DNA from: Chloroflexota bacterium
Lineage (GTDB): Bacteria; Chloroflexota; Anaerolineae; VGOG01
Direction of reading: 5' to 3'
Assembly (NCBI GenBank): GCA_030611885.1
Contig: JAUWOY010000006.1
Location: 1-64,000 of the forward strand
Length of the DNA: 64,000 nucleotides
Part shown: piece after piece, positions 46,220-61,231 of the stretch
How the letters are laid out: each line of letters starts with the position of its first letter
Position numbering within the stretch: the stretch's first letter is position 1
Made by a program: the position numbers and the translations under genes
Notes under the pieces: generated by a model
Told to the model about the DNA's origin: nothing
The model's database searches: none
The model's input: the letters and a program-made list of their open reading frames with translations, nothing else

Positions 46220-46292
46220 GCCCCCGTAGCTCAGTGGATAGAGCCTCCCTTTCGCAAGGGGAATGTCGCGGGTTCGAGTCCTGCCGGGGGCA
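46220..46292 (+). tRNA. tRNA with Arg-like body; anticodon reads CGC or, shifted, TCG
   Basis: The acceptor GCCCCCG pairs with CGGGGGC. The D arm GCTC/GAGC and T arm GCGGG-TTCGAGT-CCTGC are intact, the discriminator is A and CCA is not encoded. The body resembles bacterial tRNA-Arg. A canonical fold gives stem TCCCT/GGGGA and loop TTCGCAA with anticodon CGC (Ala), but the Ala marker G3-U70 is absent. Shifting one base gives TCG (Arg) with a mismatched stem. Amino acid identity is therefore unsettled. Confidence 0.75.
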
Positions 46293-46310
46293 CTTGCAAG
46301 AAATTCACCC

Positions 46311-46482: not shown

Positions 46483-46610
46483 TCAAAGAGAAGAACATCC
46501 CGGCCAGGCTGTTTGAGGTCTATCAGGAGCAGAGGAAGGGGCTGGAGGCGCGGAAAGCGAAATACGGCGCGATCGTCTCGGTGGAGCAGCTTATCGAGGC
46601 TGAGGAGTGA
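46483..46610 (+). pseudogene. Duplicated 3' end of PEP carboxykinase
   Basis: The frame reads KEKNIPARLFEVYQEQRKGL, then SVEQLIEAEE and a TGA stop. It matches the last 42 codons of pckG (43514-43639) with scattered substitutions. No start or upstream part remains. A strong terminator follows at 46635. Confidence 0.85.
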
Positions 46611-46634
46611 TGGTCAGCGAGCGGTAGAGCCGAA

Positions 46635-46676
46635 GCGAGGGTCAAGATGCCACGTCTTGACCCTCGCCGTCTTTTC
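46635..46676 (+). terminator. Strong intrinsic terminator
   Basis: GCGAGGGTCAAGA (46635-46647) pairs perfectly with TCTTGACCCTCGC (46654-46666) around TGCCAC, followed by CGTCTTTTC. Confidence 0.75.
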
Positions 46677-46720
46677 AAGTAAAAAATTCTTTCCAGATTG
46701 CTCCTCAGAGAAAGCCGTTG

Positions 46721-46874
46721 GTATGCGTTCAGGGGGTAGGCCAAACGTCGGTTGAGTAACCCCGAAAGGGGCGTATCGAAACCACGTTTGGCCGCCTCCC
46801 CGTGCGATCACTTGGTTTCGATACGACCTGCGGTCTACTCAACCGGCGTAATCGCACTGAGGCTGAACGCTTAC
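46721..46874. mobile_element. 154-bp miniature element (copy 2)
   Basis: Ends GTATGCGTTCAG and the complement of CTGAACGCTTAC match at 11 of 12 bases. An 8-bp duplication AGCCGTTG (46713-46720, 46875-46882) flanks it. The sequence is almost identical to 10525-10678. It sits two bases from the stop codon of the minus-strand gene at 46884. Confidence 0.88.
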
Positions 46875-46883
46875 AGCCGTTGT

Positions 46884-47711
46884 TCATTGGCTCCAGCCTG
46901 GCTTACCAATAGAGGTTGGATAGAAGTAGTCTGCACCTACCCAACCCTGGTCATCGCCAACCCGCACCTGGTAGAAAACGGTGCCGCCTGATGTTGTCTC
47001 GTCGAGGAGTATGGCATCAACGCAACCCTTGGTAGACATCCCCACGATCGCTGCGATGGAGTTGCCTTCCTGGGAGGCCACGGCAGGCTTGGCCCACAGG
47101 GCGACCTCTCCGCGCCCATCCCAGTCGCAAAGCCATCCACCCTCAACTTCACCGACCGCCGTAGGCTGCGGCAGCTCTGCCTCTATTATGCTAATAGCAT
47201 TTACCAGGGTTCCCAACCCCACTATCTCTGCAAAGGCTTCTGCGTCCGGCCCCGCCGGCATCGGCACGTCGAGGGATACTGGCGTCGGTGTCACTTTCGG
47301 AGTAGGGTTGATGATGTCGGCCAGACCAACATAAAGGAACATGAACAAAACCTGCACGCCCGACAAGATGATCATCTTGCGAGACCTCGGTTGTCCTCCG
47401 AACCACTGTATCAGCGAGCCTGTTTGCACTTTCTGTGCAACCTTGCGCGGTGGTGCGACTGGTTGGTCTCCAATCGGCTCCGCGGGCGTCGGCATCCTGC
47501 GGCTCAATATCTCGTTGGCCCGCACAAGCTCCTTCAGTGCCTCTTGGTTGGAAGCGTCCAAATCAAGCGCCTGCTCGAAGTATTCGCGAGCCTGGTCATA
47601 CCAGCCCTGCTCGAGCGCCATTTGGCCGAAGGTTATGAGTTTATCTACGCCAGCATTTTCATTGCTTACCATTGCCAGAATATCCCGCACTAGCAAAAAA
47701 GCCGCTCCCAC
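46884..47711 (-). CDS. TPR, single-TM protein with SH3-like C-terminus
   Basis: It has about 270 residues. The N-terminal part has a TPR-like repeat (GWYDQAREYFEQALDLDASN), then a basic linker and one transmembrane helix (MIILSGVQVLFMFLYVGLAD). The outer domain looks SH3-like (VFYQVRVGDDQGWVGADYFY). Both segments may link a cytoplasmic TPR to the cell exterior. The first 45 residues are paralogous to the start of the giant protein at 61112. The start is uncertain: GTG 47711, or TTG 47696 with GGGAGCGG before it. A TATAAT lies at 47740-47735 on the minus strand. Confidence 0.7.
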   Translation of the reverse strand: MGAAFLLVRDILAMVSNENAGVDKLITFGQMALEQGWYDQAREYFEQALDLDASNQEALKELVRANEILSRRMPTPAEPIGDQPVAPPRKVAQKVQTGSLIQWFGGQPRSRKMIILSGVQVLFMFLYVGLADIINPTPKVTPTPVSLDVPMPAGPDAEAFAEIVGLGTLVNAISIIEAELPQPTAVGEVEGGWLCDWDGRGEVALWAKPAVASQEGNSIAAIVGMSTKGCVDAILLDETTSGGTVFYQVRVGDDQGWVGADYFYPTSIGKPGWSQ

Positions 47712-47825
47712 TTGCCCAGGGGTGAACCACCCTCATTATAACAAATTGCACTCAGGTGGTGGGCAAAAATCACGTGAATTTAGCGTGAATCTTGCGTGAA
47801 GATAACCCCTTTGGCACATACAAAA

Positions 47826-47859
47826 AGCCACCTGTGCGGTTGACGCAGGTGGCTTTTTT
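47826..47859. terminator. Bidirectional intrinsic terminator
   Basis: AGCCACCTG (47826-47834) pairs with CAGGTGGCT (47846-47854), with T6 to the right and A5 to the left. It lies downstream of the minus-strand HicA-like operon. A nearly identical stem occurs after the cold-shock gene at 61755. Confidence 0.75.
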
Positions 47860-47938
47860 ACTATCTCTTGTTGGGCCGTGACTGGCTTGGCCGTGCCCCT
47901 GGCTCTTCGAAAGCCGAGGAGCTTTTTGTTCCTCTGCC

Positions 47939-48009
47939 TTAGATCGGCAGGAGGATTACTTCCAGATCATTCAGTATTGTCTCGTCGGTGGTCAATAATC
48001 GGTGCAACC
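47939..48009 (-). pseudogene. Possible PIN-domain C-terminal relic
   Basis: Directly after the stop of the HicA-like gene, and in its frame, comes RLHRLLTTDETILNDLEVIL then LPI and a TAA stop. It resembles the C-terminal strand and TxD region of PIN toxins. There is no start. The match is short, so this is tentative. Confidence 0.3.
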
Positions 48010-48010
48010 T

Positions 48011-48322
48011 CTACAATCCTGATAGAAATCCCTTGAGATTGCCAGGAGCCCGCTCTAGCAGTGGGCTTTCCTTAAGCATCTCCATGTACCCTTCTCGTTC
48101 GTGGGTGCAATCCACTATATCCCGTAATTGCGGAGAAGTTATGTATAACTGATTGGCAATATCGTTGAACAGGCCATCGCCAATTGTTCTCTCTCTAGGC
48201 AAATGAGTGGTTGCTATGCACCGGCCCTTCTCTATGAAGCGGTACTTGGTATGTCTGCGACCTTCACGTTCTTGACACCCCAGCTTGTTGACTATCGCTC
48301 TACGGACAACACGACGTTGCAT
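48011..48322 (-). CDS. HicA-like toxin candidate
   Basis: This 103-residue basic protein has KYRFIEKGRCIATTHLPR followed by IANQLYITSPQLRDIVDCTH and EREGYMEML. The pattern resembles HicA-type double-stranded-RNA-binding-fold toxins seen with HicB-like partners, but is more divergent. The last about 11 residues may be fused from a neighbouring relic. It starts 2 bp after the HicB-like gene, in a three-gene minus-strand operon. Toxicity is inferred. Confidence 0.5.
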   Translation of the reverse strand: MQRRVVRRAIVNKLGCQEREGRRHTKYRFIEKGRCIATTHLPRERTIGDGLFNDIANQLYITSPQLRDIVDCTHEREGYMEMLKESPLLERAPGNLKGFLSGL

Positions 48323-48324
48323 CG

Positions 48325-48732
48325 CTATGGCCTTTGCGGAATTATTGTATTGCGCAGCTCCTGCAAATCATAAGCGAGGTGAGGTGCCAGACACTCTTCC
48401 AGTTCGATCAGGTCATCGTAGTATTCAAGCAGGGCATAGCCATAGTCTTCCTTGGCTTCAGCCAGGGTAGCACCGGTGCCATATCGTAGGAACCTATCAT
48501 CGCTCACGAGGTAGTAACCCTCTTCGTAACCCACAGTCACCGGAATCGGGTCTTGTAAGGTGTAGTTGGGATCCGGCAGGGAGACGACGTCATCAGTAAA
48601 GGGAACAGAGGGATCGTCAACAGAGGGATACATAAAGACACCACTGGCAGCATCTATATGCTTGTCCATTGGAAACAATAGCTCAACTGGATAGCTTGGT
48701 TGTGCGCTTATCTCTACTAATTCAGGGCTCAT
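48325..48732 (-). CDS. HicB-like antitoxin candidate
   Basis: This 135-residue acidic protein has a C-terminal half, PVTVGYEEGYYLVSDDRFLR then YGTGATLAEAKEDYGYALLEY, that matches the HicB partial RNase-H fold (G-E-A-NAI...). The N-terminal half (about 65 residues) is unlike HicB and may fold separately. It overlaps the upstream gene by ATGA and precedes the HicA-like gene by 2 bp. No DNA-binding domain is obvious. Confidence 0.55.
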   Translation of the reverse strand: MSPELVEISAQPSYPVELLFPMDKHIDAASGVFMYPSVDDPSVPFTDDVVSLPDPNYTLQDPIPVTVGYEEGYYLVSDDRFLRYGTGATLAEAKEDYGYALLEYYDDLIELEECLAPHLAYDLQELRNTIIPQRP

Positions 48733-49052
48733 GCTGATTCTTCCTCTTCTGATTCTTTGCTCTTGCGGTAGCTCTCTAGATTCCGCTGCATGGCATCAAT
48801 AATGGCTTCCGTGCGATCTGCAGCGACGGCAATCCGAGCGACCGCCTGTGCTGGCACAGACTTCAATGCGGCCAGTTTTTCGACGTCGCCCAAAATGAAT
48901 GGCGGGACCACTTCAAAGAAAGTCAGGAAAAACTCAGCTTCAGAATGCGAAACTACCACATTGGTCGCGAAGTGAGTCTTAAGGTCTTCAGGGATCTGCC
49001 ATTCGAGGGGAATCGCCACCTTGTGTACGACCTCGTCTTTTTTTGCTGGCAT
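48729..49052 (-). CDS. DUF3467-like small protein
   Basis: This 107-residue protein has HFATNVVVSHSEAEFFLTFF and a helix AVARIAVAADRTEAIIDAMQ, with a charged tail. The N-VVVSHSEAEF pattern is that of DUF3467, a small family of unknown role. AGGAGATG precedes the ATG. It is first in the operon with the HicB/HicA-like pair, and the coupled overlap suggests it belongs to the module. Confidence 0.6.
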   Translation of the reverse strand: MPAKKDEVVHKVAIPLEWQIPEDLKTHFATNVVVSHSEAEFFLTFFEVVPPFILGDVEKLAALKSVPAQAVARIAVAADRTEAIIDAMQRNLESYRKSKESEEEESA

Positions 49053-49103
49053 AGCACATCTCCTCCTTGCCGCTTCACAAATCTTTGGTCGGTTTCGACT
49101 GGT

Positions 49104-49301
49104 CTATTTTACCAGGTTAAGTCGAAAAGCGCAAATCGCCTGGCTGGGCTCTCTTTCTGTAAGGATAAGAACGTCCAACACGGCTAGGCCATAGTAGCCC
49201 AGGGCCATAGGCAGCGCTATGCAGATCACGATGCCCAAAATCCAACCTATACCTCGGCCATGCTTTGCCCTCGAACACTCAAGGCGGCTCTTCCTCCTCA
49301 A
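49104..49301 (-). CDS. Possible small membrane protein
   Basis: This 65-residue frame from TTG 49301 has a basic start and a hydrophobic segment (GWILGIVICIALPMALGYYG) that could span the membrane. It overlaps the end of the upstream gene by 23 bp. No family match is evident, and it may be spurious. Confidence 0.25.
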   Translation of the reverse strand: MRRKSRLECSRAKHGRGIGWILGIVICIALPMALGYYGLAVLDVLILTEREPSQAICAFRLNLVK

Positions 49302-49680
49302 GTATCTCCCGCACCTCCTCCTTCATCCCTCTCTCCATCTCCTTACTCATCTCTGGCCACGCCACGCTAAACACCTCACCTACACTGCTGAATGTGTAGT
49401 ACCACCGCCCGTCAACCTCTGCAATGTTCAAGAGCTCAAACTTGCCAGCTTCGTGCATGGCGGTGGCTAGCAGGCTGTCGGAGAACCCAGCAGAGGCGGC
49501 TCCCACGCCGCCGGTTTGCTCTATTTCAAGCGGATTCTGCCGGGCGTGGAAGCCCGGCCAGCTATCACTCCGACAGGCTGCTAGCAGGAACTGAAAAGCC
49601 TCTTGGACTTCGGGAGGCTGGGCGTCGAGGAAGGAGGCGAGGGGTTGGAGTTTGGGGGGAAGGTTGGTGGTTGTTGTCAT
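49279..49680 (-). CDS. Unknown protein enlarged by in-frame mobile element
   Basis: This 133-residue protein has a family core: SFLDAQPPEVQEAFQFLLA at the N-terminus and TAMHEAGKFELLNIAEVDGR then WYYTFSSVGEVFS. Between them about 38 residues (CRSDSWPGFHARQ... through LLA) are encoded by a 106-bp element plus its 8-bp duplication. The homologue at 54466 lacks this part and joins the two directly. The total insert is 114 bp, so the frame is kept. It probably lies in the same region as two other family copies (51311 and 54466). No function known. Confidence 0.6.
   Translation of the reverse strand: MTTTTNLPPKLQPLASFLDAQPPEVQEAFQFLLAACRSDSWPGFHARQNPLEIEQTGGVGAASAGFSDSLLATAMHEAGKFELLNIAEVDGRWYYTFSSVGEVFSVAWPEMSKEMERGMKEEVREILEEEEPP
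49474..49579. mobile_element. 106-bp miniature element in frame within a gene
   Basis: An 8-bp duplication GCTAGCAG (49466-49473 and 49580-49587) flanks it. Ends CTGTCGGAG and CTCCGACAG are inverted. The interior is like the 7316 element (AGCAGAGGCGGCTCCCACGC). Insert plus duplication is 114 bp. Confidence 0.85.
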
Positions 49681-49737
49681 TCTCTTGATCAGAGGGCACA
49701 GGAGTCGGGATTCCAGCAACCAGCATCCAGAACAAAC

Positions 49738-51246
49738 CTAAGGAGAGCCGGAGGAAGCCGCCACCCGAAAGCCGAAGTAGCTGATTCGAACGTCCGGGGC
49801 GCCCCCGTAGCGATCAACGCAGCGGGCGTCCCCCTCATAGCCGGACCACGAGCCGCCCCGCAACCCCCGCCTCTCCCCGGAATCGGGCCCTTGAGGATTT
49901 CGCTCAGGTGCTTTGCTGTAATAATCGGCGTCATACCAATCGGCCACCCACTCCCAAACGTTGCCAGCCATGTCGTAGGCTCCGTAGGGACTCTTTCCAG
50001 CCTCGTAATGCCCAACGGGCGCTGTATCAGCGTATCCATCGTCTACGCTCGAATCTTTCCAAGCAAGCTCACAGTTCACGTCACAGTAGTTCAGTTTGCT
50101 CCCGTCCGGCGCACTGTTCCCCCAGGGATACTCCCTCCCATCGGTACCCCGCGCCGCCTTCTCCCACTCTGCTTCTGTGGGAAGGCGCTTGCCCGCCCAC
50201 TGGCAATAGGCGTCGGCGTCGTTCCAACTGACCTGAACGACGGGATGATCCATCTTGCCCTCGATGCTACTGCCCGGTCCCCGTGGATGACGCCAGTCGG
50301 CCCCTTCCACTTCCTCCCAATCCTCGCCTGCCCAGGCCCACCCCCATCCTGCCGTTTCAGCGTCGGTGGTGTAACCAGTGGCATCAACAAACTGCGCGAA
50401 TTGCTCGTTGGTCACCTCGTATTTGCCGATGTAGAAAGCATCGAGGTACACGGTGCGCTGGGGATGCTCATTGTCAAGGCCCTCACCCTCTGGACTGCCC
50501 ATGATGAACTCCCCGGCGCGGACGAAGACCATGCCTTCTAGAGCGCCTACAACTGTTGGGGTCGCTTGCACACTGGGTGTGATGTCCATCGTCGGCGTTA
50601 TCGTCCCACCCTGGGGGATTACTAACTCCTGGCCTATCTGCAACCGCTTGGGATCTGAGATGGCGTTGACCTCCTGGAGAGCCTCGACTGTAACTCCGTA
50701 CTGCTTGGCGATCCCGATCAGAGTATCTCCTTCCTGAACCACGTGGACCACTTGTGCGCTGGTCGTTGAGACGGAGGTTGATGTGACTGTAGCCGCTACC
50801 TGCCTCTGGGGAATGACGAGCTCCTGGTCTATCTGCAAACGTGCGGGGTCGGAGATAGCGTTGACTTCTTGCAGGGCTTCCATGGTAACTCCGAACTCCT
50901 TGGCGATCTCGCTCAAAGTATCTCCCTCCTGAACCACATAGATCACTGGCGTAGGGGTACTCGTAGGCGTAGGCGGGACAGGCGTCGGAGTGGGCGGTAG
51001 GGGCGTTGCTGTTGGCGGGACACGTGTTGGCGTAGGGGGTCTGGGAGTCGCGGTTGGAGGGACAGGAGTCCTGGTGGGCGGCATCGGCGTGGTAGCGGTA
51101 GCCGTCGGCGGGACAGGGGTTGGAGTCGCCTGCACAGGTTGTGATGTTGGAGTAGCTTGTGCAGGCGTTGCAATTCGCGTACAGGCTGTTGCGGCCAGGA
51201 TGATCCCCAGCGCTACCAGCAAGGGCCATAGCTTGTTTCTTCTCAT
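49738..51246 (-). CDS. LysM-SUMF1 (FGE-like) lipoprotein
   Basis: This 502-residue exported protein has a lipoprotein signal with lipobox LAATAC, a long Thr/Pro-rich linker, and two LysM domains ([18 protein letters not shown] and [18 protein letters not shown]). Then comes a SUMF1/formylglycine-generating-enzyme fold ([50 protein letters not shown]). LysM binds peptidoglycan; the SUMF1 part may bind ligands or modify a partner, as true FGE active-site Cys pairs are not evident. GGAGG lies seven bases before ATG 51246. Confidence 0.88.
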
Positions 51247-51310
51247 CGCAAAACCTCCGTTTCGTGTGGCGGGCAAGCTTAGGAAAGGCCGCCCCCCTCG
51301 CCCACACCAC

Positions 51311-51405
51311 TGAATGTGCAGTGCCACTGACAATCAACCTCGATCGCGTTCAAAGGCCCAAACCTGCCAGCCTTGTGCGTGGTGGTAGGGAATCACGGTG
51401 GTCAT
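51311..51405 (-). pseudogene. Relic of the 49279-type gene family
   Basis: A strong ribosome site (AGGAGGGG) and ATG 51405 begin MTTV, then the frame shifts and stops. In the neighbouring frame the family core is readable: [20 protein letters not shown] then CTFSGVGE. So the middle is deleted and the rest is out of frame. Together with the intact copy at 49279 it flanks the lipoprotein gene. Confidence 0.65.
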
Positions 51406-51541
51406 GGTCGGGCCCCTCCTTAAACATGCCCCCGGTTAATGAGCAGAGCGATAGGCCACATTGGGATCGTTAGGTGCGCCGGTCAGTTGCAGGCGTCCCT
51501 CTCGCACCAGTGGCGAGAGATACGAGTTACGCACATATCCG

Positions 51542-51626
51542 CATTTGTCACCCTGAGCGTAGCGAAGGGTCTCGTTCGCCGCAAACGAGATTCTTCGCTT
51601 CCTTTGGTCGCTCAGAATGACAAATG
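51542..51626. repeat. 85-bp inverted-repeat element, TGACAAATG family
   Basis: CATTTGTCA (51542-51550) and TGACAAATG (51618-51626) form the ends. The interior contains CCCTGAGCGTAGCGAAGGG and CGCTCAGAATGACA, a pattern widespread in unrelated bacterial genomes. Non-coding. Confidence 0.75.
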
Positions 51627-51639
51627 TTAGCGACATTGT

Positions 51640-51698
51640 CTTCTTAACATGTAAGAAGGCGCCATCTTAACATGTTAAGATCATCTTATCATGTTAAG
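51640..51698. promoter_or_regulatory. Array of three CTTAACATGTTAAG-like palindromes
   Basis: Palindromes CTTCTTAACATGTAAGAAG (51640-51658), CTTAACATGTTAAG (51666-51679, perfect) and CTTATCATGTTAAG (51685-51698) are centred about 23 and 19 bp apart. They lie between the AlbA_2/ATPase gene and the lipoprotein gene, both on the minus strand. Likely operators of a dimeric regulator, which is not identified. Confidence 0.6.
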
Positions 51699-53404
51699 TA
51701 ATAGCGGCGTTTGGCTCCTGCGCCCTGAGGATGCAAGAAGCCATCAGGGACACACAACTTGCGTAGCAGACGCGAAACCCTGACCTGAGCAGAGGGTGAA
51801 TTACCCAGCCCCAGGAGTTCGCGGCACTCCGCATTGTTGATGGATCCGTGCTGCTCCACGTAGGCGCGAATCAGTTCCGGCCAACGCACGGCATCAATGC
51901 CCCGCGCTCGCGTGTACACTGCCTTGCCCAGCAGTTCGACGGCTGCTCCGCGAGCCAGGTGATAAGTTACTCCCTTCTTCTTACCCCGCCGCTCCAACCA
52001 TGCCTCTGGTTGCAAAACGAGGCGCTCCAGTACATCCTGCGTGGCAGCCTCTGGCCGGTGCAGCAACGCAGCCGCCTGGTCCAGGCCAATCTCACTATGC
52101 TCGCGAAGATAGGAGAGCAGCAATAACTCATCCAGATCAAACTGTCGCCCCGCCTGTTGCCCTTTGGCGATGAAGGTGGCCAGCGCTTCGTCGTAGCCGT
52201 CATCGTAAAGCGTCAGGGTGACGGTGTGCTCATCGGCTTCGTAGACCGGCGGCCGCTTGCCATAGGCCAGCGGGGGGATGAAGATGCGCCGCCGTCCGAT
52301 GCCGGCTCGCTCCACCAGGCCGATCTTCTGAAATACCTCGGCCAGCAGACGGTTGCGAGCTTTCGGCTCGTGGTGCAGGATGTTCTGGGGGGTGATGCCA
52401 CCGATGAAGCCGCCCGGACTGGAGACCTCCATTTCCCGCTGTCGTTGGTGAATGTAGATGGAGCCCGGTTCCAGGTAGTCCCGGTGAATCAGAGCGTTGA
52501 GGATGGCCTCACGAAAGCTCTCTTCGGGATAGGCCGGGACCTGGACGTGGAACAGCCCCAGACGCAAGGTATGTACCGGGTTGCGCTCTGGGTGCTGGAT
52601 CAGTTCCTGGGTGCGCTGGACGATATAGAGCAGCGGCGCTTTCAGGTCTTCCCGGAAGCCGATGTCCACGGGCGTCGGTTCGTACAGGTAGATGGCCTCG
52701 TGTTGGGGCAAGACACGCGCTAACATTGTGCGCTTGCCCAGGAGCAGCAGTCCGGCTCGGGTCAGTTCACCATCGCGCACGACGCCGACAGCCTCCAATA
52801 ACTCCTGGTCTGAGAGGCCCAGCAGCGGCGATTGGGGGCGCAGGCTCTCGAGGGTGTTGCGCAGACGGGCGATCTCCACCCCATCAAGGGCATCCAGCCC
52901 CAGACCCTCTGCTGGCTGGGCGCTCCAGTCTATGGCCCCCAGAGCTACCTGCCGCCGTTGGAAGGCCTCCGGCGAGTAAGGCATGCAGTTCTTCCCCACG
53001 CGAATCTGGTAGAGGCCGGCGGTGGTGCCGTAAGGCGGGGCTGGGCCCCGGGGTACTCGCACCAGAAGCAGGTTTCCCTCTGGCAGCAGGAGTTCCTCGA
53101 TCTCCACTGTGAGGTTGGGGCGGATGGCATCGTAGATAGCTCGCTGCCAGGTATCCACATCGTAGCCGGTGCAGCCGGTGATGGCCTGCCGGCGTCCGAC
53201 AGCCCGGTCGCGTACGCCGAAGACGATGACCCCGCCGTCGGCGTTAGCGAAGCAGGCAGCCGTCTCGATGGCTTCGCTCATGCTGGTTTTGGCGTCCTGC
53301 CAGCGCTTGAACTCCAGCACGTCGCTTTCCAGTGCATCGGCCGGCTCCTGCTCCAGACGGTCGAGCAGAGCCAGTATCTCCTCACGCGAGGGGAGTCGTT
53401 TCAT
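51689..53404 (-). CDS. AlbA_2 (Schlafen-like) plus HATPase_c_4 transcriptional regulator
   Basis: This 571-residue protein has an N-terminal AlbA_2 domain (LESDVLEFKRW, ACFANADGGVIVFGV), a central HATPase_c_4-type domain (EAILNALIHRDYLEPGSIYI, EVSSPGGFIGGIT) and C-terminal winged helices to about residue 565. Such proteins are often called RecG-like or divergent AAA regulators. They may control transcription or act in defence. Start ATG 53404 overlaps a 29-codon ORF as ATGA. Three palindromes lie across its 3' end, which could be its own or a neighbour's binding site. Confidence 0.85.
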   Translation of the reverse strand: MKRLPSREEILALLDRLEQEPADALESDVLEFKRWQDAKTSMSEAIETAACFANADGGVIVFGVRDRAVGRRQAITGCTGYDVDTWQRAIYDAIRPNLTVEIEELLLPEGNLLLVRVPRGPAPPYGTTAGLYQIRVGKNCMPYSPEAFQRRQVALGAIDWSAQPAEGLGLDALDGVEIARLRNTLESLRPQSPLLGLSDQELLEAVGVVRDGELTRAGLLLLGKRTMLARVLPQHEAIYLYEPTPVDIGFREDLKAPLLYIVQRTQELIQHPERNPVHTLRLGLFHVQVPAYPEESFREAILNALIHRDYLEPGSIYIHQRQREMEVSSPGGFIGGITPQNILHHEPKARNRLLAEVFQKIGLVERAGIGRRRIFIPPLAYGKRPPVYEADEHTVTLTLYDDGYDEALATFIAKGQQAGRQFDLDELLLLSYLREHSEIGLDQAAALLHRPEAATQDVLERLVLQPEAWLERRGKKKGVTYHLARGAAVELLGKAVYTRARGIDAVRWPELIRAYVEQHGSINNAECRELLGLGNSPSAQVRVSRLLRKLCVPDGFLHPQGAGAKRRYYLT

Positions 53405-53490
53405 GGTTGGTTTCCCTCCACAATCACCACTTCTTCTCCGTCAGCCCATACAGTCGGTACACGTTGAAGTTTATAGGGTGTCGCCTTCAT
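53401..53490 (-). CDS. Possible 29-residue ORF coupled to the AlbA_2 gene
   Basis: ATG 53490 starts MKATPYKLQRVPTVWADGEE and ends GNQP with TGA overlapping the next ATG. Ribosome site AGAGG is 12 bases upstream, rather far. The exact ATGA coupling is the main support. It could be the tail of a lost gene. Confidence 0.35.
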   Translation of the reverse strand: MKATPYKLQRVPTVWADGEEVVIVEGNQP

Positions 53491-53553
53491 GATTCGGCCC
53501 AATCCTCTTTCGCATCAAGCGTGGAAACAGCGTGGCCCACTACAACCCCGGCA

Positions 53554-53604
53554 TCAGGTCAAGAAGTCGGCCAGCAATTGTCGTAGCTCCCGCTCGCTGA
53601 TCAT
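53554..53604 (-). pseudogene. Truncated AbiEii start
   Basis: ATG 53604 overlaps the AbiEi stop (TGATG) and encodes MISERELRQLLADFLT, then TGA. AbiEii toxins normally start MISxREL and run about 300 residues. The remaining nucleotidyltransferase domain is missing, so the toxin is lost. Confidence 0.65.
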
Positions 53605-54425
53605 CAGTGTTCCCGCCACTCCAACAACTGACGCTCCGGAATATTGACGATCAATCGCCAGTGGGCGTCTCGCACTCCTTCACGCGGGCCGCGAGGGTCC
53701 AGGAGGGCATAGTTGCGGTCCTCGGGCGCTTCCAGACGCTGTAACAACTCCTCATGGCCCATCTCCAGCCGCTCTAGCCAAAAGCCTAGTCGCCGCATGG
53801 CCGTCCGATTACCCAGGCGCTGGCTGTATTCGACCAGACAGTCCAGATCCAGCTCATCACTGCCGAACCACAGCCCTTTGGCTGGCTCGATCACCCCACC
53901 GCAGTATTCCGGGTGATCGAAGCCGTCGGCGATAGCCTTCTCACGTTCGGCGATCTGCACTGGCCTGTCGAGCAGTTGAACAGTGGTGTAGCCGAAGAAC
54001 TTGTGCTCGCTCAGGGTGACGAAGCGATAGGTCAGGCCCTCAATGGTCACCGGTCGTTTGCGCCGGGTGGTGACAATCCATACCGGACGCGGCTGGCGTT
54101 CGCTGTAACCATAGTAGTTGAGCGCCGTGGCATAGCCCAGGTAGTAGGGTTGTACCAAGGCGGCGGCAACGAGGTACTCGTGCTCCGCCCAGTGAGCTTC
54201 GGGACCGGCTTCCAGGGGAATGAGCCGGTACTTGCCGCGCTCCAGCCGCTGCACCCAGCGCTTGGCAGCCAGGCGATAGAGCAGCCTGGCGACGTCAGCA
54301 CCATTGGCGCCAGACGTTTGACGCGCCTCTTCGATGGTGAAGATAGTCCGTCCGGCGGCCGCCAGCGCGCTCAGCAGGCGGGCTTCGCGGTCACTCAGGC
54401 TTCTTACCAGGATGGGTTGGGACAT
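53604..54425 (-). CDS. AbiEi-like antitoxin, without its AbiEii partner
   Basis: This 273-residue AbiEi-family protein has an N-terminal wHTH (SDREARLLSALAAAGRTIFT and ARLLYRLAAKRWVQRLERGK). The larger C-terminal domain has YYLGYATALNYYGYSERQPR and ITIEGLTY-like strands. It is the antitoxin of type IV toxin-antitoxin systems, which repress transcription and counter the AbiEii nucleotidyltransferase. The downstream toxin gene survives only as 16 codons. An orphan antitoxin may still regulate or protect against an incoming toxin. Confidence 0.82.
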   Translation of the reverse strand: MSQPILVRSLSDREARLLSALAAAGRTIFTIEEARQTSGANGADVARLLYRLAAKRWVQRLERGKYRLIPLEAGPEAHWAEHEYLVAAALVQPYYLGYATALNYYGYSERQPRPVWIVTTRRKRPVTIEGLTYRFVTLSEHKFFGYTTVQLLDRPVQIAEREKAIADGFDHPEYCGGVIEPAKGLWFGSDELDLDCLVEYSQRLGNRTAMRRLGFWLERLEMGHEELLQRLEAPEDRNYALLDPRGPREGVRDAHWRLIVNIPERQLLEWREH

Positions 54426-54465
54426 GCTTTCTTGTTCTCCGTAACGCTGATTCTTGATTACCGCA

Positions 54466-54771
54466 TTATCTTAGCATAAAACAAGAATAAGGGCAAGAGT
54501 AGTGAATCGCGTCATTAGTCCTGACCCTCCACGCATCGGGATTCGCTACATTCAGCCCTGGCGCCTTGCTAAACGCCTCGCCCACCCCACTGAATGTGTA
54601 GTGCCACTGACCATCAACCTCTGCCACGTTCAAAAGCTCAACCTTGTCGGCCTCGTGCATGGCGGGGGCTAGCGGGAACTGGGAAGCTTCTTGGGCGTCG
54701 GGAAGTTGAGCGTCAAGCAGGGAAGCGAAGGCTTGGAGTTCATTGGGAAGATCACCAGTTGCGTTTTTCAT
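54466..54771 (-). pseudogene. Copy of the 49279-type family, degraded C-terminus
   Basis: The frame has SLLDAQLPDAQEASQFPLAP joined to AMHEADKVELLNVAEVDGQW and HYTFSGVGEAFS. This uninterrupted join shows the ancestral form before the mobile insertion at 49474. The last about 25 residues are not conserved. No clear ribosome site precedes ATG 54771. It lies directly after the GHKL gene. Confidence 0.5.
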
Positions 54772-54836
54772 GACCAGGACTGAAGCTGGCAATGTGTGCT
54801 TATCAGGTGGATAGCTTTGGTCAAACCGACGACAGA

Positions 54837-56474
54837 TCAAGAATGCAAAACCTGCATGAAGCGCTTAGTTACACGGTCAATGGTATCTTTCACGTCGAAC
54901 AGTGCATCGCTTGCATGATATAGCTCGTTTCTTTCAAGCTTCTCGTATGGCAAAGCTATGGCATATTCAACTGCTGCAACCTCGTAGCAAACCTCGCGGA
55001 ACTGTCGAGCATCTGTACGTTTTCCCCCTGCTTCAAACGCACTTGCGATCTGAGGATGGTCCAAGTTGATGAAAATAGTCTTCGTGTCCCCAGCATATCT
55101 TGAACGTGAGCTCTCGGTAGTCACACGCTCGTACTCAATGGAGAAGACAGCTCTCCTTCGCTTACGCCGACCTTTAGTTGTACTTTTCCTTGCCCCGGGT
55201 TCACTACCTGGGCGTACAGTTGGCCCTGGTCTGGGTGTATCACCCTCACCAGCCAGGTTGCCTTGCGTTCCTGTGCCATGAGGCGTACCTGTTTGCTCCC
55301 ACGGCGTTGGCTCGTCTCCATCCCCAGGCCAGAGTTCTCCTCGCTCATCAAGAATCTCACTTACGCTTTTGCCCCCGGAGCGCTTTGATACCCTGCGCGT
55401 AAGCTCAAGTTCCATCTCCTGCTGGGCAAAGTCGTCGTTAAGAATGTTTGAAATTCTCTCTGCTTCTTTGGCAAGTTGTTTTGCCGTCTCTGATCTGCGC
55501 CTCTCTCGCTCCTTTTTAACGAGGTCTAATCTTATCTCTTCGAGTTCCTCAGATAGCCAACCAAGCAGTACGACAACTACTGGATTCTGTCGGTTAAGCA
55601 TGTTATTCCGCGTGTTGTCAAAAGCTGGAATGGGCCATTCTCCGTCTTCCAGTATTGGTACATCTACCTCGCCGAATAGATGGTTTGCACGCTCTTTCCT
55701 TTCAATGCCAGCGAGAGTTGTTTCATGCCAGATACCACGCGCTAGAACATCAATTCCTCTGGTATCGTCGTGTAATGGTACGGGGGATACCTTTACGACT
55801 AGTGATACTTTGCCAACATGCTCAGCAACTTCTGGCGGCGGGAAACGCTCAAATTGTTCTACAAACGGTGGTTCTTCGAACTCGCATACATGACCGTTTA
55901 TGGTGACATGAGTGCGTTTACGATAGCGGCTCAGGTGGCGTTCAATGTAAGAAATCACCTTGTCAACATTTGGGCGTCTGATATTGAAGTCACGGATTTC
56001 TGCGACTGTGCCATCTTCTTCATCTGACGGTTCGTTGACTACTATGTCTCGAACAGAGAAAGGCTCGCCGCTATGTGCCTGTTCGATATCTTGTCTATGC
56101 AATTCAACTACATTTCTTCGGCCTGACTGAGTTGTATTGATGCGGAGGCAGTTGGCTAGGCCAAAAGCAGCGCATTTGCCCGTGCCAAATCGTCCTCTGA
56201 CTCTCTTTCCACGTTTTCTCTGGATGTTTTCTCCGTGCATCTGGAAGAAGTTGCTTAGCTCTTTCCTTGACATGCCGCAACCATTGTCAGATACTCTGAT
56301 CTCGTGGCTTGTTATTTCGACTGCAACTACGGCTGGTACGCCGTCCTGAGCAGCGTCCAGTGAGTTGGCAACATACTCCCAGACTAGCTTGGGCATGGTG
56401 TTGAAATACGCGGCGTTTTGCAGGAAATCTCTAGCTACATGTGAGGTTACCTCGATAGACTGCTGTTTTGACAT
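54837..56474 (-). CDS. GHKL-type ATPase of unknown system
   Basis: This 545-residue protein has a Bergerat ATP-binding fold: N box WEYVANSLDAAQDG at about 29-42, G1 box SDNGCGMS near 60, and G2 GRFGTGKCAAFGLA near 93. A transducer-like region follows to about 330 (TLAGIERKERANHLFGEVDV). Then come a coiled coil (VKKERERRRSETAKQLAKEA), a disordered Pro/Gly/Lys segment and a C-terminal domain (IEYERVTTESSRSRYAGDTK, EVAAVEYAIALPYEK). It is like MORC/Hsp90-type ATPases. Start ATG 56474 is one base after the stop of the 193-residue protein, so it is third in the operon. GC is low relative to the genome. Confidence 0.82.
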   Translation of the reverse strand: MSKQQSIEVTSHVARDFLQNAAYFNTMPKLVWEYVANSLDAAQDGVPAVVAVEITSHEIRVSDNGCGMSRKELSNFFQMHGENIQRKRGKRVRGRFGTGKCAAFGLANCLRINTTQSGRRNVVELHRQDIEQAHSGEPFSVRDIVVNEPSDEEDGTVAEIRDFNIRRPNVDKVISYIERHLSRYRKRTHVTINGHVCEFEEPPFVEQFERFPPPEVAEHVGKVSLVVKVSPVPLHDDTRGIDVLARGIWHETTLAGIERKERANHLFGEVDVPILEDGEWPIPAFDNTRNNMLNRQNPVVVVLLGWLSEELEEIRLDLVKKERERRRSETAKQLAKEAERISNILNDDFAQQEMELELTRRVSKRSGGKSVSEILDERGELWPGDGDEPTPWEQTGTPHGTGTQGNLAGEGDTPRPGPTVRPGSEPGARKSTTKGRRKRRRAVFSIEYERVTTESSRSRYAGDTKTIFINLDHPQIASAFEAGGKRTDARQFREVCYEVAAVEYAIALPYEKLERNELYHASDALFDVKDTIDRVTKRFMQVLHS

Positions 56475-56475
56475 T

Positions 56476-57057
56476 CTACTTTGCCTCCTCTACGAATCTC
56501 TTTTTTAGCAAACCCCATAGTTCGGATAGGGTTTCATCATCAACTACTGCATTATCTATGATCGCGTATCGTCTCTGCCTAGCCTTGCTCTGAAAGTATT
56601 CATTCACTCGCGCGAACTGGTAAAAGTCCTGTAATGCTATTATTCCAGACTCACCGTCACTGAATAGTCTATAGGCTTGCGTGGTACGTAAGCGTGCACA
56701 CTCAGCTTGTTGGTTTGCGGCGATAGAGTCCCTCCTGTATTTGATTGACGGCACGTCTGGAACGGCACCAAGATCCAAGGTTTCTATCCACTGTAACCCA
56801 GCAGGACTTAACATCCATCCCATTGTGTTATTCCCGACAAGTAATCCCCCGTTTTGGGGTTTCTTTGCACTACGAAGTGTACCGCCGACGGCATCTAAGT
56901 CAATCCGCTCCGAATATTTTCGCCAGTTGAAGCGGCCAGGCGCGATTTCATTCACCTTAATGGCAATATCCTCTCGATCAACGTACTCTACGTCTCCATC
57001 TAGGAGGGCAACTGCCATAGTGACGAGTTCAAGATTTGAGAAATCATCGTTTCGCAT
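56476..57057 (-). CDS. Possible winged-helix protein linking the alpha-CTD array and GHKL genes
   Basis: This 193-residue protein begins MRNDDFSNLELVTMAVALLD. The N-terminal about 85 residues look like a winged helix (EDIAIKVNEIAPGRFNWRKY, TLRSAKKPQNGGLLVGNNTM, WMLSPAGLQWIE). The rest is helical (IIALQDFYQFARVNEYFQSK). I know no named family. It starts two bases after the stop of the giant gene and ends one base before the ATPase start, so the three genes are tightly coupled. Confidence 0.65.
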   Translation of the reverse strand: MRNDDFSNLELVTMAVALLDGDVEYVDREDIAIKVNEIAPGRFNWRKYSERIDLDAVGGTLRSAKKPQNGGLLVGNNTMGWMLSPAGLQWIETLDLGAVPDVPSIKYRRDSIAANQQAECARLRTTQAYRLFSDGESGIIALQDFYQFARVNEYFQSKARQRRYAIIDNAVVDDETLSELWGLLKKRFVEEAK

Positions 57058-57059
57058 AC

Positions 57060-60000
57060 TTACTCACCAACTTTCTCGATCATGACAGTTCGATCCCAAG
57101 TATTGAATGTGAACCTTAACCTGTCCCCAGCCTTGCAGCCCAGGAACTCAAAGGGTCTTTTCAAACGACGAAACTCGTTTTCAGTCGCATACAGTTTCCC
57201 TGACCGCCTGCCACTGACGAGGCAATCCCATTCGCCACTCAAGTTCGGAAACTGATCGCTGAATATACCACCTGTTCCTACAGCAATTACACTCAGAGTG
57301 GCGCTGACTGTGATATCTCCTCTTTTATCATACTCAACTTCGGGATTAACAGGGATTCGCTCTTTAGCAGCTTCAGCTCGCTCGATATCTTGTCTCATTA
57401 CCGACCTTCCCCGCAGCTTGTATAAGCTCGTCTCTATTCTTTCAAACAAGGGGGAGCGCTGCAAAGTTGGGTGTAGTGAGGCAAGAGTCAATTCACTGTC
57501 TATGAAAGCTTGAGCTAGTTCTGCATGATGGACTACTGGGCCATTTTGCACAAGACAGTTCATTATGACGGACTCGGCCCGATTTAACTCCTCATCTGTT
57601 TCACCACCCCAGTAGTATAGTCCGCCCTCACTGCTATAGCCGTGTATTTGCAGTATTTGCTCCATCACATTTGGGGGAGGAATAGGGAATTCTGTTCTTG
57701 ATGCATTATATCGTATGCCTGAGCAGATATCCTCAATAGATAGTGCCCCACAGTACTGAGACATTTTTCTCAAAGCATGGTGGAAGGAATCATGATAGCC
57801 GATTTTGTCTTTGGCACTGCCTATACTCCGAATGAACCAGTCCTTTGAAGCCTCCGTGTATCCAAGAGTTCGCAATACGTCCTCTACTACCGACATATCC
57901 TCTTCGATTTCTTGAGATAACCATCTGGCATGTACACTGCCAGAAAACTGAGCGTGCTTCTTGATAAACTTGCTTGTTTTCCTGGGGAGCGTCTTGCGAA
58001 TATGTAAGATTCTGGCAGGCAAATCAGGTGTCCCTGAGGTTGCAAGTTCGATAGCATAGTTCAAATTGTTTGGTATTCTTAGCTCTTGAATTTTGCCATC
58101 GGCTAACAGGTTGCACACTGCAACCAACGTTTCAACTGGATCTATGGCCATGTAAGCTTTCGATGTCCAGCTACCGACCAACCCTGATGACCGGATGCTC
58201 CGTTCCCATTGTTCGTAGGTAATATCCAGCCCCATGTCCTTCGCAGTAAGCAAGGCCGATTGCATTCTCAGTAAAGGCGGTCTGACTGCTAAATCTTTGA
58301 CCGATTGAGCCTTGACTACTGACCTAACGCCAGCTCCTATTTTGCTCTTAAGTGTGACGGCAATTTGCCTTACTCTTTCGCGTGTAACACCAATTTCCAG
58401 TCCAAGTTCTTCGAGTGTCTTGGATTCAAAACCATATCTGGATAATAGGACTGTGATATGGTCTTTCCTTCGGACCTGATCGAGCAGAAATATCAACTCT
58501 TCGCAAATGTTGATCGAGTCGCCTAAGATACTCGCCATCGTCTCATATACATAATGACGATCAATGATATTATCCTTGGCTGAAAGCCAATACGCTATGG
58601 AGTTGCCCGCAATCCTAGCCTCTTTGTGAAGTAAGTCCGCAGATATCTGCTTCTCAATTAGTCTGGCTTGCCAGTTAACAACTTCTATTGTAATTGTTGG
58701 AACCTCTACTATCGCTCTTGCTGCATCTACAAATTGCACACGGGTCAGGCTATCTTCTATTTCAACAACAGGGTCCGGCTTGATTCCACAAACCTCTCGC
58801 AAGTTCCCCGATTCAACAACTTGTAGTAGCTCCCCGATGGTCCGAATAGATGTATGCATCAATGCACTAAAGCTGAGCTCACTCAGACCCAGCACTTCGA
58901 TGGAATCTTCCGATGAGACACGGATTCGGATTGTTGGAATGTCTACCGTTTGAGTTGTTGTAGCCATAGCTTGAGTGGACGCACTATCAGGCAAAGGAGT
59001 ACCTGATGGAAGCGCGCCTCGTGCTGAAGCCTTGGATAGCTTTGTAGCCAGGGTCGGATTGGCAGAGAGATAAACCTGCAACTTCTCTCGTATTTCGGCT
59101 AGGGACTTGGGGCCAATTTGGTACACATCTGTGATTTCTTCATCTGACATTCTCGCTAGTTGCTCTACAGTGGTGATGTCTATCCGCATCAGAGCATTGT
59201 ACGGACGGATGGAAAGCCTCAGAGCATCCAACGGTGTCAGATTCAATGGTGAGGAAGGTAGTTGCAGCGGAGGCGGTTCAACCATCTGTGCCTCCAGTTC
59301 TGGGGGGCTCTGTTGCGCTTCGTCAGGCAACGGATGCTCGGCCAAGTAGGCTTTCAGTTTTCTCTTGATCTTAGCCAATCTATCGTAGCCAATCTTTGGC
59401 ACACTCAAGATTTCGGAAAGTGACATTGTCGCTAGCTGCTCCACGGTAGTGATGCCCGCATTCACCAAGATATTGTAGGTATGGAAAGACAGGCTAAGGG
59501 TTTTAAGAGGAGTCTGGGATGATGATGAGGACAAAGCAGCCTGCATCGGAGAGATCTTGGATTCCGCTAGCGGATGTAGAACTGGTTTGACTTCATGTGT
59601 AAGGGAACCTGGTTTAGTCGGTAGTGATGATTCGGGCTTCTTCTGAGAAGAAGCAAGTTCGGTTGTCAAAGGGTGTGCAGCCCGGCAAGCTTTCAGCCAG
59701 CCTTTGATCTCGGCCAATGACTCGGGGCCAATATTCCGCACATCTTTGATCTGTTCATCTGACATTCCGGATAGTTGCTCTATGGTGGTGATGTTAGCCA
59801 GCACTAGAGCAGTGTACGAACGGAAGGAGAGCCCTAGAACATCCGGTGAGATTGAGACCGGTGGTGGGTAAGGTGGAAGTTGTGGGGGTGACTCAACCGC
59901 GTATGGCTCTGCTTCTGTAACGCTGTCTTCTGCCAGTGCTTTCGGCCCCAGTATTGCTTCTGGCGCATCAACGAGTCGCACACGAGCGAGGCTATCTCTT

Positions 60001-61112
60001 ATTCTGGCCATGGATTTCGGCCCTATATTACGAACGTATACCAGGCGCCCTGTTTCAATTCTTTGAACCAGTTCACCGACAGTATGAATGCTTGCACCCC
60101 TCAATACACCTAAGAGGCGTGGGCCCAAGTCAAGCACTTGAATAGGATCCTGTGATGAGACATGGATATTGGTTGTTGGAACGTCTACTCTTTGGGTTAT
60201 TGGGACATTCACTTTCGTAGGACTACCATCGGGGGAGAAACCATCGAATTCGTCTACCTCTCTCCAGAGCGTGTCGCATGGTGGGCAGTAGTAGTCACGT
60301 TCAGCCTCCCGGTAAGCATTAGCTAAAGAGCCAACCACGTTGCCTTGGCACAAAGGGCACTGCACCGCAACCCCTTCTGGTTCTGGCGCATCCACAACAT
60401 GGCTTCTCTCCAATTTCCTGTCCGTAAGGATGGTCACTCTCTGTTCTGTTACATCACTCAGTGAAGTCAGATGCGGTGGTGGGGCAGGTGGTTGAAGCGG
60501 GAGCGGTTCAACCGCCTGTGGCTCTGGTTCCGGAGGACTCTCTTTCGCTTCGTCAGACAACGGATGCTCAGCCAGATAGGCCGCTAGCTTCTCACGGATA
60601 TCGGCAAGCGCTTTCGGATCCAAATGAGGAATCGCCAATAATCCCTCGTCGCTCAGTGCCGCTACCTGGGCAACCGTATGCTGACCTGATCGCTGCAGAC
60701 AGTAGTAGCTGCGGATGGAGAGATTCAGCGCATCAATGGGAGGACTACTTTGATCTAGCATCTCTGCGACAGGAAGGAGGGAAACACCCCGGATCTCGGA
60801 TTCATTCTCTGACTCTTGATGGTGAGGGGATTTTGGCTTCCGCTCAACCCTGTGCAGTGGCTCGACTGGTCCGTCTTGTATCGGTTCAACAGTCGTGATC
60901 GTCCTGTCGCTCAATATGGCCTGTACAAGGCCATCTAGGGCTTCCCGGTTGGAAGGGGCCAAATCAAGCGCCTGCTCGAAGTAGTCACGAGCTTGGTCAT
61001 ACCAGCCCCGTTCAAGCGCCACCTTGCCGACGGTTATGAGTTCGCCCACGCCAGTATTTTCATTGCTTACCATTGCCAGAATGTCCTCGACCGGCAAGAA
61101 AGCCACCCCCAT
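57060..61112 (-). CDS. Giant protein: six alpha-CTD-like domains and sigma region 4
   Basis: This 1350-residue protein has an N-terminal TPR-like part (GWYDQARDYFEQALDLAPSN) also seen at 47711. Six RNAP alpha-CTD-like helix-hairpin-helix units lie near residues 124-186, 322-381, 421-474, 534-591, 627-684 and 737-791 (core pattern ITTVEQLARMSDEEI then IGPKSLAEIREKL). A zinc ribbon at about 249-281 has CPLC and CPPC. A sigma-70 region-4 HTH is near 877-927 (LEELGLEIGVTRERVRQIAV). The C-terminal 400 residues are helical with no known match. A long multidomain nucleic-acid-binding hub is likely. The start may be ATG 61112 or a later TTG. Confidence 0.75.
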   Translation of the reverse strand: MGVAFLPVEDILAMVSNENTGVGELITVGKVALERGWYDQARDYFEQALDLAPSNREALDGLVQAILSDRTITTVEPIQDGPVEPLHRVERKPKSPHHQESENESEIRGVSLLPVAEMLDQSSPPIDALNLSIRSYYCLQRSGQHTVAQVAALSDEGLLAIPHLDPKALADIREKLAAYLAEHPLSDEAKESPPEPEPQAVEPLPLQPPAPPPHLTSLSDVTEQRVTILTDRKLERSHVVDAPEPEGVAVQCPLCQGNVVGSLANAYREAERDYYCPPCDTLWREVDEFDGFSPDGSPTKVNVPITQRVDVPTTNIHVSSQDPIQVLDLGPRLLGVLRGASIHTVGELVQRIETGRLVYVRNIGPKSMARIRDSLARVRLVDAPEAILGPKALAEDSVTEAEPYAVESPPQLPPYPPPVSISPDVLGLSFRSYTALVLANITTIEQLSGMSDEQIKDVRNIGPESLAEIKGWLKACRAAHPLTTELASSQKKPESSLPTKPGSLTHEVKPVLHPLAESKISPMQAALSSSSSQTPLKTLSLSFHTYNILVNAGITTVEQLATMSLSEILSVPKIGYDRLAKIKRKLKAYLAEHPLPDEAQQSPPELEAQMVEPPPLQLPSSPLNLTPLDALRLSIRPYNALMRIDITTVEQLARMSDEEITDVYQIGPKSLAEIREKLQVYLSANPTLATKLSKASARGALPSGTPLPDSASTQAMATTTQTVDIPTIRIRVSSEDSIEVLGLSELSFSALMHTSIRTIGELLQVVESGNLREVCGIKPDPVVEIEDSLTRVQFVDAARAIVEVPTITIEVVNWQARLIEKQISADLLHKEARIAGNSIAYWLSAKDNIIDRHYVYETMASILGDSINICEELIFLLDQVRRKDHITVLLSRYGFESKTLEELGLEIGVTRERVRQIAVTLKSKIGAGVRSVVKAQSVKDLAVRPPLLRMQSALLTAKDMGLDITYEQWERSIRSSGLVGSWTSKAYMAIDPVETLVAVCNLLADGKIQELRIPNNLNYAIELATSGTPDLPARILHIRKTLPRKTSKFIKKHAQFSGSVHARWLSQEIEEDMSVVEDVLRTLGYTEASKDWFIRSIGSAKDKIGYHDSFHHALRKMSQYCGALSIEDICSGIRYNASRTEFPIPPPNVMEQILQIHGYSSEGGLYYWGGETDEELNRAESVIMNCLVQNGPVVHHAELAQAFIDSELTLASLHPTLQRSPLFERIETSLYKLRGRSVMRQDIERAEAAKERIPVNPEVEYDKRGDITVSATLSVIAVGTGGIFSDQFPNLSGEWDCLVSGRRSGKLYATENEFRRLKRPFEFLGCKAGDRLRFTFNTWDRTVMIEKVGE

Positions 61113-61155
61113 TTGCCCCGGAAGCGGCTTTATGCTACAATTCCTCAAGCCTTGC

Positions 61156-61210
61156 TCCTGGGCGTTCAGGAGTAGGTGCTGGGATTACTGAGGCGTAACT
61201 CTGTAATCCC
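61156..61210 (-). promoter_or_regulatory. Two leader hairpins of the giant-protein operon
   Basis: GGGATTAC (61181-61188) pairs perfectly with GTAATCCC (61203-61210), and CTCCTG pairs with CAGGAG (61156-61172). Both lie in the 5' leader between the promoter and the start. No U-tract follows. Confidence 0.45.
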
Positions 61211-61231
61211 GTTTTGTTTGGTTGCCAGGCA

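Follow-up and report, generated by a model that had tools for sequence, protein, structure and literature searches.

The MORC and paraMORC ATPases of restriction-modification (R-M) systems couple a GHKL domain to an S5 domain, are mobile, and lie beside methylases or endonucleases at some loci (Iyer et al. 2008, PMC2292703). In the antiphage system MZA a sigma factor (MzaA) accompanies a GHKL protein (MzaB), and in VcSduA, a Shedu protein of the paraMORC3 type, a GHKL ATPase forms part of a demonstrated antiphage protein (PMC12137116). PglW of type 2 BREX carries a domain like the C-terminal domain of the RNA polymerase alpha subunit (alpha-CTD) followed by three winged helices (PMC12839542), and sigma-type helix-turn-helix (HTH) domains occur in other defence proteins, such as BrxL (PMC12839542) and variants of DndH (PMC10853773). 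MORC proteins are reported to compact or entrap DNA (PMC12216690, PMC8277788). Here we describe a three-gene module, hereafter the trio, that partly resembles each of these and is found in a 64,000-nucleotide stretch (the window; positions 1 to 64,000 of contig JAUWOY010000006.1, assembly GCA_030611885.1) of a Chloroflexota bacterium of the class Anaerolineae. It encodes a large protein with an array of DNA-binding-type domains, a 193-aa partner and a GHKL ATPase. We read the trio, at a confidence that is evenly balanced, as a horizontally mobile, self-contained, defence-type module that targets DNA, probably by ATP-driven clamping and silencing of promoter-like sites.

The trio occupies positions 54,837-61,148 as three minus-strand open reading frames (ORFs), encoding the large protein (57060..61148), the 193-aa partner (56476..57057) and the 545-aa ATPase (54837..56474), the first two being 2 bp apart and the last two 1 bp apart. 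The tight coupling had been remarked upon in an earlier note made from the letters of this stretch alone, as had a large protein of 1350 residues; this is the length from an inner ATG at 61112, and a TTG start at 61148 extends it to 1362. A Pfam scan recognised HATPase_c_3 in the ATPase (1.7e-17), whose catalytic motifs are intact, and six RNA_pol_A_CTD stretches (3.6e-66) and Sigma70_r4 (3.7e-6) in the large protein, in agreement with the GHKL ATPase, the six alpha-CTD-like domains and the sigma region 4 (sigma4) HTH that the note had named; its zinc ribbon is matched by a CPxC pattern. Such an agreement lies well outside what chance would give. One promoter-like site, the candidate TTGCCA-17-TATACT with an extended -10 (61260-61232, minus strand), could be read from the sequence; the note had inferred a single promoter for all three genes. 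The low GC content noticed earlier also holds, at 46-53% over the trio versus ~58-64% across most of the surrounding DNA. Absent from that first description were three predicted winged helices and a putative B3-like domain in the large protein.

Homologous loci were fetched by the ATPase only, and hidden Markov models for the large and 193-aa proteins were then applied to them. In this search for synteny, which the earlier note had called for, all three genes proved to be clustered in 47 of the 58 fetched loci (a few near-duplicates among them), and three more (L021, L038, L049) are cut by contig ends. The note had named two outcomes that would tell against a genuine system, namely that the genes keep no company elsewhere or that the giant protein belongs to a housekeeping family; the full cluster instead recurs across phyla, and no housekeeping family matched the large protein as a whole. 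The eight other loci, all in Chloroflexota, hold the ATPase alone, and a 193-aa homologue was not detected elsewhere in those genomes; they (L040, L043, L050, L060, L061, L064, L066, L069) represent long-branched Chloroflexota clades. One trio locus (L055) comes from the genome of an isolate, Allopontixanthobacter confluentis, and most of the others from metagenome-assembled genomes. Hosts of the trio belong nominally to some ten phyla: Chloroflexota, Poribacteria, Bacteroidota, Bacillota, Actinomycetota, Acidobacteriota, Verrucomicrobiota, Myxococcota, Pseudomonadota and a Parcubacteria bin. Three gene orders were observed (large-small-ATPase, the same set with the large gene divergent, and small-ATPase-large), which largely track clades of an ATPase tree in which phyla are mixed. 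Pairwise distances over 42 loci correlate among the three proteins (r 0.85-0.88, with none of 999 permutations as high) in a test that leaves host relatedness in, the ATPase tree itself not following phyla.

Within this common framework the proteins change at different rates. In two close pairs of loci, nonsynonymous divergence (dN) is 0.03-0.07 in the ATPase versus 0.21-0.24 in both recognition proteins, under purifying selection. Between L054 and L074 the ATPase is 94% identical, winged helices 2-3 are 87-90% identical, the sigma4/helical part 52-57% and the small partner 68%, a pattern that may point to mosaic exchange, or else to reading parts that change very rapidly.

These features bear on the alternative that the trio is an endogenous regulator of transcription or of the nucleoid, in which the large protein would sit on host promoters and the ATPase would remodel the DNA at those sites, the trio then being a regulatory cassette for a particular niche. 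Promoter- or DNA-binding types make up the majority of the large protein's domains, most trio loci are placed among housekeeping genes, and a related pair of winged-helix and GHKL proteins has retained common neighbours in several Anaerolineae, all of which such a regulator would accommodate. We nevertheless consider it rather unlikely, as the distribution is patchy (an ATPase match in ~3% of genomes of the phylum, 9/301, at least two of the nine being distant GHKLs), the trio has been transferred between phyla, it lies on an island and keeps R-M and toxin-antitoxin company elsewhere, a relative's copy is apparently broken, and the recognition parts change fast.

The large protein, like the other two, is described here by residue and by window position, all features lying on the minus strand. 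It begins with a TPR-like helix pair (residues 38-67, 60948..61037; Pfam TPR_2 3.7e-5, under its cut-off). Six alpha-CTD-like repeats follow, at residues 137-191 (60576..60740; Pfam and repeat model) and then, by the repeat model, at 335-390 (59979..60146), 436-488 (59685..59843), 547-601 (59346..59510), 639-693 (59070..59234) and 749-804 (58737..58904), the zinc-ribbon-like CPxC...CPxC knuckle (264-291, 60276..60359) lying between the first two. Compared by eye, repeat 5 retains what we take to be the equivalents of E. coli R265, N268, G296, K298, S299 and E302. Because relatives carry only zero to two alpha-CTDs each, by a model built from the window's own repeats, the six-fold array is an elaboration of the window member; the zinc knuckle, too, was found in the window protein and in none of the relatives among the homologues examined. 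Repeats 2 and 6 are nearest to Poribacteria homologues, and repeats 1, 3, 4 and 5 are alike mutually and mostly nearest to NusA and bL31-linked alpha-CTDs of the host, some of whose modules may possibly have been recruited into the array. On contig C87 of the same genome, a NusA gene (L086:6116-8137, minus strand) bears two alpha-CTD-like repeats, and ~860 bp from it a bL31-like ORF (L086:9002-9493, plus strand) is fused to one such domain.

The C-terminal 533 residues were modelled with AlphaFold2 (AF2) from an alignment containing 45 homologues (mean pLDDT 91.6). The model places in order the sigma4 domain (864-945, 58314..58559), a helical domain (946-1044, 58017..58313), three predicted winged helices of HHH-EE secondary structure (1045-1114, 57807..58016; 1115-1181, 57606..57806; 1182-1249, 57402..57605) and a terminal barrel (1265-1362, 57063..57356). 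For sigma4, the family profile matched sigma factors of the PDB at 4.7e-20, the nearest solved structure by Foldseek was sigmaA region 4 on -35 DNA (1ku7; TM-score TMt 0.69, root-mean-square deviation 1.5 A, 38% identity), and Sigma70_r4 was matched in 44 of the 45 homologues. Sigma70_r2, which serves core binding and the -10 element, matched neither the window protein nor the 45 C-terminal halves of homologues. The barrel, assigned by region size and fold class, is likely, though not certain, to belong to the B3 class, its Foldseek matches being the plant B3 domains FUS3, VAL1, LEC2, NGA1 and TEM1 (mostly prob 0.9-1.0, TMt ~0.5, E 0.09-0.7). A HARE-HTH match was not reached by Pfam in the window's large protein, and Foldseek against viral structures returned nothing at E <= 0.001. 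At two loci (L056:4076-6329 and L067:6809-9326) the large gene is seemingly split into two overlapping ORFs, through frameshift or sequencing error.

For the 193-aa protein, a possible winged-helix protein in the earlier note, the conserved partner gene is real and the winged helix stays a suggestion: its family is absent from Pfam, no convincing PDB match was obtained, and it is from the consensus that an N-terminal winged helix and a C-terminal helical part seem probable. Profile comparison was negative against HARE-HTH and against the large protein's own winged helices, and we claim no common origin with either. At one locus (L121:7530-8459) the small-partner domain is joined, by eye, to a PQQ/propeller-like repeat region.

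The ATPase comprises a GHKL and S5 module (residues 8-297, 55584..56453), supported by alignment and Foldseek, and a conserved C-terminal domain with an INLDHP motif (445-544, 54843..55142), for which no known match was found. E33, N37, G67, G97-T98-G99, T156 and R289 are invariant over 53 ATPase sequences, as are R457 and N470 of the C-terminal domain. Besides GHKL and S5, the AF2 model (mean pLDDT 80.7) shows a long helix, a linker that is disordered, and the C-terminal domain. Hsp90/TRAP1, MORC2/3/4 and the topoisomerase ATPases are closest to it in fold, and it aligns with MORC2/3/4, Hsp90 and GyrB over ~375-400 columns. Sequence diagnostics of the published families were sought over 54 ATPase sequences: the MORC-specific S5 motif GhXhhpXXRhl is present in none; the ExxxH pattern of paraMORC2 S5 domains occurs in 11 and is not conserved; the ExK of the C-terminal restriction-endonuclease-fold nuclease (E-D-ExK) of paraMORC3/Shedu occurs in 18, again not conserved and with no nuclease Pfam match; and the C-terminal HxH motif of paraMORC5 occurs in three. 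The TIR domain of paraMORC4 has no match in the window ATPase and no widely recurrent fourth gene stands adjacent. paraMORC1 is marked by a C-terminal extension of its own, for which PMC2292703 states no signature in sequence. Since the MORC motif is absent and the paraMORC2-5 diagnostics are lacking, we regard the protein as MORC/MutL-like by fold and not as a MORC by published definition. The ATPase gene alone may nonetheless have been seen before, because Candidatus Pelagibacter and Erythrobacter are among the figure species of Iyer et al. 2008 (PMC2292703) and the tree places family members in Pelagibacteraceae and Erythrobacteraceae.

This architecture also bears on the notion of a switch akin to a sigma factor and anti-sigma kinase, in which the GHKL protein would phosphorylate or sequester the sigma4 protein and so control other genes in the way that CapK-CapS controls immune operons. 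Near such operons the GHKL kinase CapK is found together with a winged-HTH regulator (PMC13373217), and the VapBC neighbours of some loci would suit this scheme. With its S5, its long helix and its C-terminal domain, however, the ATPase is MORC/Hsp90-like rather than a short kinase of the SpoIIAB type, no STAS domain emerged from the Pfam scan, and no target operon is conserved downstream, so that we judge a switch of this kind very improbable.

The window copy of the trio resides on a 14.6-kb island (46603..61231) that is absent from the same site of a genome of the same family (L108), where the two flanks stand 67 bp apart. The nearest kin of the window ATPase are in Poribacteria (73% identity, support 100). 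The contig is nonetheless native Chloroflexota, identity of the flanking TtuA-like gene being 73-75% within its family and class; on this ground, and because both flanks match the same-family genome, we rejected the possibility of a contaminating Poribacteria contig. The island is a mosaic, GC content at third codon positions being ~0.46 in the trio, a value foreign to the host, and 0.73 in the AbiEi/Schlafen genes, versus 0.82 in the host TtuA-like gene. The candidate promoter lies on the host side of the island junction. Inspection by eye shows a TTGCCA-17-TATACT at the empty site of L108 as well, and the cassette may thus be served by a promoter that the host already had.

Other island genes, which we do not count in the core, are an AbiEi-like antitoxin (53604..54425, minus strand; PADLOC AbiEi 2.6e-76) beside which no AbiEii partner was recognised, and a Schlafen/AlbA_2 protein with a RecG-C-like domain (51689..53404, minus strand; Pfam). 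The toxin-antitoxin relics that the earlier note saw all around the set thus amount to the AbiEi-like orphan on one side; on the other lie the host genes csp, ThiS-like and TtuA-like. A protein with LysM and FGE-sulfatase domains is encoded within the island at 49738-51333. A tRNA-Ala (CGC) gene at 46220-46293 lies ~310 bp outside the left edge of the island, whose start is not at the tRNA. A hint of a phage capsid in a 124-aa ORF (54466-54840) (E 0.035) was dismissed.

Elsewhere, six loci have R-M-type genes, differing in type, alongside the trio or in its vicinity: a C5 methylase with a sub-threshold Eco29kI-like nuclease (L055), Eco57I-type methylases (L039, L057), an N4/N6 methylase (L034), a type ISP enzyme (L067), and a PLD-helicase with a methylase and SIR2 (L063). 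The trio might accordingly be an accessory to restriction, looping DNA between recognition and cleavage sites and working only with an R-M partner linked to it or encoded elsewhere in the genome. Such a role has been proposed for MORC/paraMORC GHKLs, and B3-like domains are of a type noted by the same authors with EcoRII-like enzymes (VP1/RAV) (PMC2292703). This proposal we find quite unlikely, for the partners differ in type and are missing from the neighbourhood of most loci, SF2 helicases do not recur, and the scan of genes on the window island recognised neither a methylase nor a nuclease.

VapBC pairs lie within ~16 bp upstream of the first module gene, or slightly overlap it, at L041, L047, L054, L068, L074 and L123, and the VapCs of these six loci are the sole members of that VapC family in all flanks. 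L123 holds a strongly diverged version of the module, in the order VapB-VapC-small-GHKL-sigma4 protein, and its VapC is 86-88% identical to those of L054 and L074, which adjoin the ordinary module. Pfam recognised HARE-HTH (4.7e-12) and Sigma70_r4 in its third protein, HARE-HTH-type domains being proposed readers of modified bases; the 626-aa middle protein is called GHKL from a weak profile match, and in a sister genome the middle gene is apparently broken. More distantly, the 193-aa family model also matches winged-helix-type proteins adjoining other GHKL ATPases in Anaerolineae. At L122, L124, L125, L126 and L128, all in that class, a winged-helix-like protein, mostly with a Lys-rich linker, accompanies a GHKL ATPase of the 625-aa class, and several of these loci have common neighbours.

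The recurrence of a DNA reader, a partner and a clamp-type ATPase, their mobility, their R-M and toxin-antitoxin company and the fast-changing reading parts are together consistent with a defence-type module acting on DNA. In such a module the large protein would read DNA by several parts at once, namely sigma4 as a reader of -35 elements, alpha-CTD-like domains of the AT-rich or UP-element type, the three winged helices and the B3-like barrel; the 193-aa protein would be its partner or adaptor; and the GHKL-S5 ATPase would act as a MORC/MutL-like, ATP-gated DNA clamp loaded by the two recognition proteins. The likeliest outcome would be that incoming DNA is clamped, looped or compacted at sites that resemble promoters or carry some other mark, and that it is thereby silenced or retained for a nuclease outside the trio. 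The presence of sigma4 and alpha-CTDs suggests promoter-like sites as the target. None of the three proteins showed a recognisable nuclease motif or domain, which leaves silencing or clamping as the simplest result where a locus stands alone; where R-M genes are linked, their methylase and endonuclease could supply self/non-self marking and cutting. Linkage, co-divergence, mobility, the ATPase motifs, the sigma4 fold and the defence-type neighbours are observed; the defence role, which the context supports, is inferred, as are the clamping or silencing mechanism, the formation of a complex and the nature of the target.

Several observations weigh against this interpretation. About 40 of the 47 trio loci are without an R-M gene nearby, the R-M and VapBC adjacencies are raw counts with no formal background, and none of the other neighbouring genes is widespread enough among trio loci to count as a fourth member. 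The ATPase matches nothing in the phage collection or viral contigs, and plasmids yield a single weak, partial match to it and none to the 193-aa protein. Four Chloroflexota keep common flanking genes around the set, as for an ordinary inherited gene. The E-values behind the B3 assignment are weak, and the MORC-specific motif is wanting. The idea of a transcription-linked or DNA-sensing defence system, raised in the earlier note, thus gains from context (R-M genes of differing types, VapBC, SIR2 and the island) and loses by the lack of that motif. A bolder form of the interpretation, an immune system that reads invaders with the promoter-reading parts of RNA polymerase and silences them with a MORC-like clamp, nuclease-free, as a prokaryotic counterpart of MORC silencing, we advance tentatively and as doubtful. 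If it held, bacteria of many phyla would possess a portable system that uses promoter recognition to select DNA for clamping or silencing, and would offer a tractable prokaryotic model of MORC silencing and a nuclease-free strategy in bacterial defence.

No model of PADLOC, NCBIfam or Pfam covers the trio as a whole, and it was not described in the open-access literature searched, which included neither the first report of MZA nor the HARE-HTH paper of 2012. The likenesses to known systems are partial. Compared with MORC and paraMORC of R-M systems, the trio's ATPase differs in the diagnostics given above, and in place of SF2 helicases it is accompanied by a sigma4/alpha-CTD protein and by a member of a new family. 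The MZA profiles both match weakly. The match to MzaB-type GHKL (1.7e-6) covers the ATPase core only and falls far below the NCBIfam cut-off of 850 bits. An identity of the large protein with MzaA was considered and rejected: the alignment covers sigma4 only, the sole part in common, and is not that of a complete sigma-70 MzaA; the MzaA model itself has a strong match in nearly every genome (positions ~428-670), which whole sigma factors would explain; nor does any fourth or fifth gene recur. Sigma-70 factors in general share region 4 with the large protein, in which region 2 was not detected. Unlike PglW, with which it shares an alpha-CTD-like domain and three predicted winged helices, the trio has no Pfam match to a NERD nuclease, kinases or an inactive STAND domain, and it possesses sigma4, a B3-like domain and a GHKL partner; unlike VcSduA, which has its own PD-(D/E)xK nuclease, it has no recognised counterpart of that enzyme. 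The methylase and endonuclease proper to an R-M system accompany the trio in some relatives only; neither was recognised by the scan of the window's island genes. Eukaryotic MORC2/3/4 silencers, which with Hsp90 and topoisomerases are among the nearest solved folds, provide ATP-gated DNA binding as a working analogy; they differ in having a CW domain, none of which was found here, the MORC motif and a chromatin context. On a conservative reading, the trio is a widespread three-gene module that brings with it a protein family outside Pfam and an ATPase C-terminal domain of its own, and we place it among GHKL-ATPase conflict systems.

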